DNA of 64,000 nt. It comes from an uncultured Acidimicrobiales bacterium. Lineage in GTDB: Bacteria > Actinomycetota > Acidimicrobiia > Acidimicrobiales > SZUA-35. Shown here piece after piece: positions 40,787 to 56,689 of this stretch. The position numbers and the translations under genes were made by a program. The number at the start of each line of letters is the position of its first letter. The first letter of the stretch is position 1. The notes beneath the pieces are model-generated. The model ran no database searches. It was not told the DNA's origin and worked only from the letters and a program-made list of their open reading frames with translations. Location: positions 1 to 64,000 of the forward strand of contig CALKTH010000036.1 in assembly GCA_937997485.1 (NCBI GenBank), written 5' to 3'.

Positions 40787-42109
40787 TCAGGTCCAAGGGG
40801 CGGGCGCACCCCGTTGCACCGAATTGAATCGGCTCGCATAGCTCGGTCCGAGGTTGTCCTTCCGGGGACCGGAGAAGCCGAACAGGAACTGGGCGACACG
40901 GCGGATCTGAATCTCCTCTGAGCCCTCAGTGATCCGGTAGCGACGGTGATGCCGATAGATGTGCTCGAAGGGGAGGTGGCGGCTGTAGCCGAGGCCCCCG
41001 TGGGTCTGAATGGCCTGGTCGGCTGCGTTGCACACCAGCCGGTTGGCTCGGTAGTTGCACATGGCGACCTTGTCCGAGATCGAGGTGGGTTCGATGCCCT
41101 GGTCCATCTCCCACGCCGTCTTGCGAATCAAACCGCGAATCATCTCGGCCTCGGTGTGCATCTCGGCCAGCGGCCACTGGATGGCCTGGTTCGTGCTCAG
41201 CGGCTTTCCGAAGGGCTTGCGCTCACGGGCGTACTTGACCGACTCATCGATGCAGTACTGGGCAGCCCCCAGACTGCTCGCCGCCTGCCGAATGCGGTTC
41301 TCGTGCACGAAGGTTTGGGCAACGGCGAGACCACGCCCCTCAGCTCCCAGGATCGTGTTGTCATGGACTCGCACCTCATCGAGGGTGACCTCGGCGTGGT
41401 CTGTCGGCATGTTGTAGGTCCACCACATGAACTCGGTAGTGAATCCCGGTGTGTCCGTCGGGACGATGAAACATGTGATGCCATGCGCATCGCCGTCGTC
41501 ACCGGAGGTGCGGGCGAACACGTAGTCGTGCGTAGCGGCGTGCAGGCCCGTGTTCCAGCGCTTTGCACCATTGATGATCCATTGATCCCCATCTCGGACT
41601 GCACGGGTCTCCATCCACGTTGCATCCGAGCCGTGGAGCGGTTCGGTGAGTCCGAAGCCAATGCGGGCCTTGCCCGCCAGCATCTTGGGGATCCACTCGG
41701 CCTTCTGCTCTTCACTGCCATGGATGTCCATCATGAGGACGGTCACGAGGTTGCCGACGATCGATGATTCGTTCTGCAGGTCGTTGTGCAGCCCGAGTCC
41801 CTTGGCCGCGAGGTGCTCTCGGATGATGGCCATGCCCAAGTTGGAACCACCCTGGCCGCCGAACTTCTCCGGCAGGTGGTAGCGGTAGAACCCGGCGGTA
41901 TCAGCGCGGCGCCTCATTTCGCCAAGCAGCCCCTCCCATTCGGCGTTCGGCCAACCGTCTCGGTCGAAGTCGGTGCGCGCGTACTCCCGTCGGTGATCGA
42001 AGAAGCGCATGTTGTCGTTCTCCCGCTCCAGTGGTTTGATCTCGTCTTCGATGAACGCATCGAGTTGAGTGAGGAGGTTCTGGATGTCTTCGGGAATCAG
42101 AAAATTCAC
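40787..42109 (-). CDS. Acyl-CoA dehydrogenase family protein
   Basis: GFGLTEPLHGSDATWMETRAVRDGDQWIINGAKRWNTG, QTHGGLGYSRHLPFEHIYRHHRRYRITEGSEEIQIRRVAQ. Confidence 0.92.
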   Translation of the reverse strand: MNFLIPEDIQNLLTQLDAFIEDEIKPLERENDNMRFFDHRREYARTDFDRDGWPNAEWEGLLGEMRRRADTAGFYRYHLPEKFGGQGGSNLGMAIIREHLAAKGLGLHNDLQNESSIVGNLVTVLMMDIHGSEEQKAEWIPKMLAGKARIGFGLTEPLHGSDATWMETRAVRDGDQWIINGAKRWNTGLHAATHDYVFARTSGDDGDAHGITCFIVPTDTPGFTTEFMWWTYNMPTDHAEVTLDEVRVHDNTILGAEGRGLAVAQTFVHENRIRQAASSLGAAQYCIDESVKYARERKPFGKPLSTNQAIQWPLAEMHTEAEMIRGLIRKTAWEMDQGIEPTSISDKVAMCNYRANRLVCNAADQAIQTHGGLGYSRHLPFEHIYRHHRRYRITEGSEEIQIRRVAQFLFGFSGPRKDNLGPSYASRFNSVQRGAPAPWT

Positions 42110-42196: not shown

Positions 42197-42228
42197 GCTG
42201 TCCCGGTCCTGAACCGGACCGGGACAGC
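42197..42228 (+). promoter_or_regulatory. 13-bp perfect hairpin in ppc leader / divergent promoter region
   Basis: GCTGTCCCGGTCC-TGAACC-GGACCGGGACAGC, 34 nt upstream of ppc start; no T-tract. Confidence 0.45.
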
Positions 42229-54410: not shown

Positions 54411-55649
54411 TCAGGTGAAGCGATAGCCCTTGGGGACGGCGACCACCCCGCCGTCCGAGACGGTGAATCGAGCAGCGTCTTCTTCCGGATTGACACCAAT
54501 GCGAGTGTTCGGGGGAACGATCACGTTCTTGTCGATCACCGCTTTGTTGATGATGCAGCCCTCGCCGATCTGAACATCGTCAAAGAGAATGGCACCGTGC
54601 AATTGCGCATGGCGCTCCACCCGGACGTTTGGTGAGATCACCGATTCTCGGACGGCACAACCGCTGAGAATGGCACCGTTGGACACCGCGCTGTTCTCCA
54701 CGTGGGGCGGCGTCACTCCATCAGTGACGAACTTGGCCGGTGGGAGCGACCGCCCAAGCGTAAAGATCGGCCACTGGCTGTTGTAGAGGCTGAACTTGGG
54801 CAGCGGCTGCACCAGATCCATATGGGCGTCGAAGTAGGCGTCGAGTGTTCCAACATCTCGCCAATAGCCGCGCTGCTCGTCCTCATCACCCGGAACCATG
54901 TTGGCGGAGTAGTCGTACACATGGGCCTCACCCTTGTCGACCAAGGCGGGAATGAGGTCGCCACCGAGATCTCGGCTGGAGTCTTCGCTGTCTGCATCTT
55001 CGTGAAGGGCCTGGAGCAGCGCCTCCACGTCGAACACGTAGTTGCCCATGGACACGAACGACTCATCCGGGGAGTCGGTCAGACCCGGGGGATCGGCTGG
55101 CTTCTCCAAAAACTCGCTGATCTGCGTGCCATCGGGCGCGTCGATCACGCCGAATTGGTGCGCCTCGGACCGAGGAGCCCGCAATGCCGCCACGGTGACT
55201 CCGGCGCCGCTCTTGATGAGCTGGTCCAGCATCTGCCGAGGATCCATCCGGTAGATGTGATCGGCGCCGAACACGAACAAGTACTTCGGTTGCTCGTCAT
55301 GGATGACATTCAGATTCTGGAACAGCGCATCGGCTGAGCCGAGAAACCACTGCGGACCGGTGCGCATCTGTGCCGGTACGGAGGTGACGTAATTTCCGAG
55401 CATGCTCGAGAGGCGCCACGTGCGGGACAGGTGCACGTCGAGCGAGTGGCTCTTGTACTGGGTCAGCACAACGATCTTGCGATACCCACCGTTCGCCAGG
55501 TTGGAGAGGGCGAAATCGATGAGCCGATAGGGGCCTCCGAACGGGACGGCCGGCTTTGCCCGATCAGCGGTGAGTGGCATCAGACGCTTGCCTTCACCTC
55601 CGGCGAGAACGACGGAGAGAACGCGTGGTCGGGAGCCCGTTTCAAGCAT
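54411..55649 (-). CDS. glgC: Glucose-1-phosphate adenylyltransferase
   Basis: [72 protein letters not shown]. Confidence 0.95.
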
Positions 55650-55789
55650 CGTCCCATCCTGCCTCATCTCGATGTGCGACGCCGGAATGGGTGGGGGATT
55701 TGTCTCCCATTGAGTCGATTGACCCGGTTGAGCGGATCGGGTTTGGCCCGAACGCCTCATGTGCGACCAGTCACCAGTGAGGTCTACTG

Positions 55790-55882
55790 ATGTCTGCGGG
55801 TACCGAGGGCAGGACCAGCGGCCGCTTCTGGCGGGCGGAACCGGCCGCATACAACATGGTTCTTCGCTCTCGCACGGGGTGA
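55790..55882 (+). CDS. Putative 30-aa small protein or leader peptide
   Basis: GTGAGG-7nt-[33 protein letters not shown]; stop lies in the 5' arm of an intrinsic terminator. Confidence 0.45.
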
Positions 55883-55901
55883 CTCCTTTGGAGTCACCCC
55901 G
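55875..55901 (+). terminator. Intrinsic terminator hairpin in divergent intergenic region
   Basis: CGGGGTGACTCC-TTT-GGAGTCACCCCG, 12/12 bp stem, then ACCTCCTTTTCC. Confidence 0.75.
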
Positions 55902-55978
55902 ACCTCCTTTTCCCTGGCCACGGACGCTCGACGACTCCTTTCGATCATCTTTCACCAACGCCTGGGCATGATGGGGAG

Positions 55979-56689
55979 ATGTCTGGAGCAAAGAAAACCC
56001 TTCTCGGTGGCGCCCTCGGTCTGGTCGTGATTCTCGGAGGCCTCGCGTGGTGGCTTGGATTCTTCGAACAGGCGGCCGAAGAAGTCACGACGGAAGCGGC
56101 GGTCGAAGCTGCTGCTGAGGTGCAGGGCGATGCCGTCGCCGATGGTGTCCTCACCGACTTGACGGGCAGCTGGACGATCGTGGCCGACGGCGCATCGTTC
56201 GTGGGCTACCGGATCGACGAAGTGCTCACGACGGTCGGTGACTTCACAGTGGTTGGCCGAACCGATGGCGTGACCGGCGCCGTCGAGGCTGACGGCACCA
56301 CCATCACAGCAACCAACCTCGTGGCCGACATGACCACGATCACGACCGACAACAGTGGACGAGACGCCGCCATGCGGGGCCAAGCGCTCGAGACCAGCGA
56401 GTTCCCCGAGGCAACGTTCGTGCTCACCTCGCCGATCGAGCTCGGCACGCTGCCCGGTGATGGCGAGAGCGTGGATGTGGTCGCCAACGGGGACCTCACG
56501 ATCCATGGCGTGACCCAGTCTGTTGAGTTCCCATTGACCGCAACGGTGACCGGGCAGACCTTCGTGGTCATCGGCCAACTCGGCATCGCCCTCGCCGACT
56601 ACGACATCAGCACACCCAGCGCACCGATCGTCGCCAGCGTCGAAGACGAAGGCATCCTCGAGCTCCAGCTGATTTTCCAGCGGAGCTAG
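55979..56689 (+). CDS. YceI family protein with N-terminal membrane anchor
   Basis: TM ([17 protein letters not shown]), [54 protein letters not shown]. Confidence 0.9.

Follow-up and report, generated by a model that had tools for sequence, protein, structure and literature searches.

The window analysed here, a stretch of 64,000 nucleotides from a contig of an uncultured Acidimicrobiales bacterium, contains a gap from which glgC (glucose-1-phosphate adenylyltransferase; 54411-55649, minus strand) and the gene for a YceI-domain protein (55979-56689, plus strand) diverge. Within this gap, on the plus strand, lies an intrinsic terminator hairpin at 55875-55901, a perfect 12-bp stem (CGGGGTGACTCC-TTT-GGAGTCACCCCG) with ACCTCCTTTT directly after it. 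First-order Markov simulations gave about 0.05 perfect stems of at least 12 bp (loops of 3-8) per 64 kb and none with a T-rich tail; the hairpin is far beyond what chance would produce in 64 kb. The surrounding sequence is also unusually stable, and folding of 55793-55912 gave z = -5.5 relative to shuffled sequence. A dispersed genomic repeat was ruled out as the source of the palindrome, which is present as a single copy. A first-pass annotation of the gap had placed here a Shine-Dalgarno-like GTGAGG, a 7-nt spacing, an ATG at 55790, a stop codon and the perfect 12-bp hairpin, and all of these are where it placed them. One other perfect stem of at least 12 bp occurs in the window, a 13-bp palindrome lacking a T-rich tail at 42197-42228 (GCTGTCCCGGTCC-TGAACC-GGACCGGGACAGC). 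The two genes that diverge on either side of it, both named from reading their translations, are acyl-CoA dehydrogenase-like (40787-42109, minus strand) and phosphoenolpyruvate carboxylase-like (from 42262, plus strand); the palindrome is perhaps an operator or another structured RNA.

A plain DNA search with the glgC/yceI gap returned no match in 60 relatives, since the RNA encoded there drifts too fast for BLAST to see it, and it was revealed only by lining up syntenic gaps. Searches with the YceI protein, followed by comparison of glgC, showed that ten further family genomes have the divergent pair as well. The ten gaps are very unlike in length and sequence, yet each contains the same series of blocks: a TTGCCA-like element, a TTCACT-like element, GCGGGTA, GCGGG, and a terminator hairpin with a T-rich tract. 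Two of the longer gaps (L008 in genome G001 and L009 in G022) carry tandem and dispersed repeats (GGCCATCCAACT... and GACTCCCTCCGGGGGCCGTT...) beside the RNA. A covariance model built from eleven sequences (R1) found members in other genera at other genomic places, and divergent members were added using the promoter pattern and two broader models (R2 and R3). By these searches, 33 of the 39 genomes of this Acidimicrobiales family have a homologue, which covers 10 of its 11 genera; as a rule it is present once per genome. The RNA was not found in genus g6 or in five further genomes of the family, one of which is only 55% complete. Genome G062 gave a second match (L145), which over the stretch printed does not differ from L128 of genome G030; with contamination of G062 at 8%, it is probably on a contaminating contig. 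Nine further matches within the family (L101, L103-L105, L107-L109, L131, and L136) were treated as chance.

Outside the family, R1 recovered no homologue in 239 other genomes of the order, nor did R2 in samples from the class and the phylum, each of about 400 genomes, or the promoter pattern in about 380 genomes from elsewhere in the order; filters on these large sets were stricter, so that very divergent relatives could escape. With the most sensitive model, R3, 24 genomes from as many other families yielded no match under E = 0.01. A scan of 84,980 GTDB species with the pattern gave true matches exclusively in Acidimicrobiales or Acidimicrobiia MAGs, and pattern matches lacking model support were taken as chance. 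The same was concluded for weak model matches outside the family (L132-L135, L138-L140, and L142-L144), of which those printed had no accompanying promoter and terminator.

The members share one architecture, described here by its plus-strand coordinates in the window. An unpaired 5′ end, GCGGGUA (55796-55802), is invariant in all 33 members. It is followed by helix P1 (55804-55816 with 55858-55872), helix P2 (55818-55824 with 55842-55848), both drawn from folding and covariation, and hairpin P3 (55826-55840), whose apical loop is GCGGG (55831-55835) in 32 of 33 members. R1 scored the window at 60.3 bits (55794-55874) and R3 at 63.7 bits (55754-55877). The three body helices covary strongly. 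Across the 33 sequences, standard pairs filled 85.7% of pair cells; shuffling lowered this to 65.4%, and sliding the partner strand to 39-47%. Two-sided changes numbered 136 against 43 in shuffles, a value reached in 0 of 500 of them; the 21 closer sequences gave 91.2% against 73.8% and 73 two-sided changes against 22. Alignments fitted to a model are biased towards the model's own structure, but two-sided changes were present too in an unfitted MAFFT alignment of the first 11 sequences. Single-sequence folding returned the same architecture for most members, with L038, L128, and L130 folding otherwise. The terminator hairpin stands at the same place in every member while its sequence and loop vary, is followed in most by a clear T-rich tail, and in the 25 members folded had a pairing probability of 0.91-1.00 alongside the folded body.

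Upstream of the RNA, a -10-like element (TCTACT, 55783-55788) lies 7 nt 5′ of GCGGGTA, preceded by a -35-like element (GTGCGA, 55761-55766) where relatives carry C-Y-A-TTG-N-N-A. Among the 25 members examined, the -35 TTG was kept in 24, the -10 sequence TTCACT in 21, a spacer of 17-18 between the two in 23, and a distance of 6-7 nt from the -10 element to GCGGGTA in 24. The window's -35-like element is the most degenerate of these, and its promoter as a whole the weakest of the set. Judged by these motifs and their spacing, the RNA gene appears to have a sigma-70-like promoter of its own, and from their constant arrangement the RNA should start at GCGGG or one base earlier. The predicted small RNA would span 55796-55911 on the plus strand, a length of about 110-116 nt that runs from the conserved 5′ terminus through the whole T-rich tract, with both ends putative. 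An inverted repeat of the type CCAC-N5-GTGG occurs in the promoter region of genera g7, g2, and part of g9 and is absent from some genera; in L036-L044 and other members it falls within the spacer between the -35 and -10 elements, and a regulator of the RNA might use it as an operator.

These observations strongly support, at the level of sequence, a small RNA gene. It has what is predicted to be its own promoter, its own terminator, a structure conserved independently of any reading frame, and no tie to one particular neighbour. Among the readings offered by the first-pass annotation, an independent sRNA transcription unit is the one well supported, since 33 genomes conserve the promoter, the covarying structure, and the terminator. 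We conclude that the gap holds a structured RNA gene that makes no protein and was undescribed before. In the proposed course of events, a sigma-70-like promoter would start the transcript at about 55795-55796; the RNA would begin with single-stranded GCGGGUA, fold into one long interrupted hairpin (P1-P2-P3) that exposes GCGGG in its apical loop, and end at the hairpin at 55875-55901. These steps describe a predicted transcript and draw on sequence, covariation, and conservation.

Because the two exposed G-rich motifs are the sole constant sequence while the helices around them change, the GCGGG copies at the 5′ end and in the apical loop are most likely contact sites. The reading we favor, and consider likely, is a stand-alone regulatory sRNA gene acting in trans through these two sites. 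The RNA may do so by base-pairing to C-rich regions in several messages, a mode of action inferred from the conservation pattern and by analogy, and preferred over protein binding because it is the commonest way in which such RNAs act. Near-universal presence in the family, usually in a single copy, suggests a role that is general and constantly kept rather than tied to a neighbouring gene. Pairing with 16S rRNA, for which we took the segment CCGCCCG to be a possible partner, was dropped as a candidate, given that only GCGGG is conserved and not CGGGCGG.

The main rival to message pairing is a partner protein that recognises GCGGG. The two copies could bind or titrate an RNA-binding protein or the polymerase, in the manner of a Csr sponge or of 6S/Ms1 RNA, and the arrangement is suggestive: the same five-base motif occurs twice, in exactly the two unpaired places, nearly invariant while the rest drifts, in an RNA present in almost every genome of the family. 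Against this, no partner of GCGGG specificity is known, Csr-type sites consist of GGA in loops, which is not required here (the loop being GCGGG), and the RNA bears no resemblance to 6S or other Rfam families. We regard protein binding as possible but distinctly the less probable mode. A shade less probable still is its more specific form, in which both motifs of this family-wide RNA bind an RNA-binding protein or RNA polymerase and the RNA represents a new sponge or polymerase-binding type, in bacteria that are not known to have Hfq.

A cis-acting role fares worse. The hairpin could belong to a leader, a riboswitch or attenuator with a terminator that governs whether transcription continues into yceI (an attenuator had also been proposed in the first-pass annotation), and yceI is indeed the next gene on the same strand in genera g1, g5, g7, g8, and g9; a leader would also be compatible with the short distance, no more than about 150 nt, that separates the RNA 5′ end from the start of the next same-strand gene in several genomes. 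The neighbours, however, vary by genus, which shows that the RNA unit has been rearranged independently of any one gene. It is flanked by glgC and yceI in g1, g5, g7, and g9, by coaA and yceI in g8, by coaA and glpD in g2, by a 3-hydroxyisobutyrate dehydrogenase-like gene and an aminotransferase in g11, and by an ABC transporter ATPase and a GH13 enzyme of the alpha-amylase family in g3 (L106). In g10 it mostly lies between coaA and a convergent gene for an LLM (luciferase-like) oxidoreductase, so that there is usually no downstream gene to control, and once a histidine kinase gene follows. The downstream gene is thus of at least five types, in addition to the convergent neighbour in g10, and no constant downstream gene or pathway of the kind expected for a riboswitch or attenuator accompanies the RNA. 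Nor was a competing strand visible in the alignments, and in the thermodynamic model of the 25 folded members body and terminator form together, with the terminator probability near 1 beside the folded body. With the downstream gene differing by genus, g10 usually offering a convergent gene only, and no competing structure visible, we find the attenuator proposal unsupported and consider cis control of yceI improbable.

The hairpin might instead be a terminator or palindromic operator and nothing else, for example one that blocks antisense transcription into or out of glgC. A perfect 27-bp palindrome in a divergent gap would fit such a role, but the palindrome is where a conserved and covarying RNA, preceded by a promoter, comes to its end, and the hairpin persists among members with changed sequence; this reading is very improbable.

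The remaining possibility is the 30-aa small protein or leader peptide that the first-pass annotation had proposed for the ORF at 55790-55882 (plus strand), whose appeal lies in an ATG with the Shine-Dalgarno-like GTGAGG 7 nt upstream. As an ORF it is unremarkable, since 76 ORFs with a length of 25 aa or more overlap the surrounding 5.5 kb. Its ATG falls between the -10 element and the predicted start at about 55796, so the transcript should lack it, and the GTGAGG lies within the promoter spacer. An ATG at this position occurs in 2 of the 25 members examined, and across these 25 no start codon and frame are kept within the transcript, as a leader peptide would need. Measured from GCGGGTA to the loop, the spacing among the members examined falls into all three residue classes modulo 3, the encoded peptides are unlike between genera, and frames shift even within genus g2. 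The check on conservation of the reading frame in relatives that had been suggested went against the ORF, with indels breaking the frame. A second candidate, the frame opening at an NTG in NTGCGGGTACC (MRVPGT...), was also rejected; it breaks within and between genera, and g5, g9, part of g10, and part of g11 no longer have its start codon. With its ATG upstream of the RNA start and neither start codon nor frame conserved, the ORF is judged spurious and a peptide product is scarcely credible. More generally, an RNA gene can show up as an apparent small ORF that stops in a terminator, the start codon in this case standing between promoter and RNA.

The sRNA gene is defined well enough for a named family, having 33 members, a promoter, covarying helices, a terminator, and two nearly invariant motifs, and a family definition of this kind opens specific and cheap tests. 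Comparison of 12 sequences with Rfam 15 at permissive thresholds assigned no family, the best unrelated matches lying far below gathering; ARAGORN detected no tRNA or tmRNA, and text searches of the published literature found no sRNA described for Acidimicrobiia. Riboswitches and attenuators that end in a terminator resemble it in combining a structured RNA with a terminator 5′ of a same-strand gene, as in many members here, but the new RNA has no constant downstream gene or visible alternative structure, and in most of g10 its neighbour is convergent. Csr/Rsm-type protein-titrating RNAs such as CsrB and RsmZ carry many GGA sites; they share the repetition of a G-containing motif in unpaired places, whereas the new RNA has two GCGGG sites and a dependence on GGA is not seen. 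The 6C RNA of Actinobacteria (Rfam RF01066) is likewise a structured sRNA of this phylum whose exposed loops present motifs of a single base type, but its loops are C-rich, its structure is another one, and the members of the new RNA that were searched had no Rfam match.

The general-stress sRNA GsrN of Caulobacteraceae uses a C-rich loop to pair with G-rich message sites, and relatives with an unpaired 5′ G-rich loop have been predicted in Rhizobiaceae (PMC5869019). GsrN too is a stand-alone sRNA of one family in which an exposed loop is the most conserved part (PMC5869019). The two RNAs showed no homology by any test run, and the new RNA differs in that its motif is G-rich and present twice, in that it comes from the phylum Actinomycetota, and in having no known stress promoter. 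By analogy, its manner of action would most resemble that of family-restricted sRNAs with one conserved exposed loop, of which GsrN is an example.
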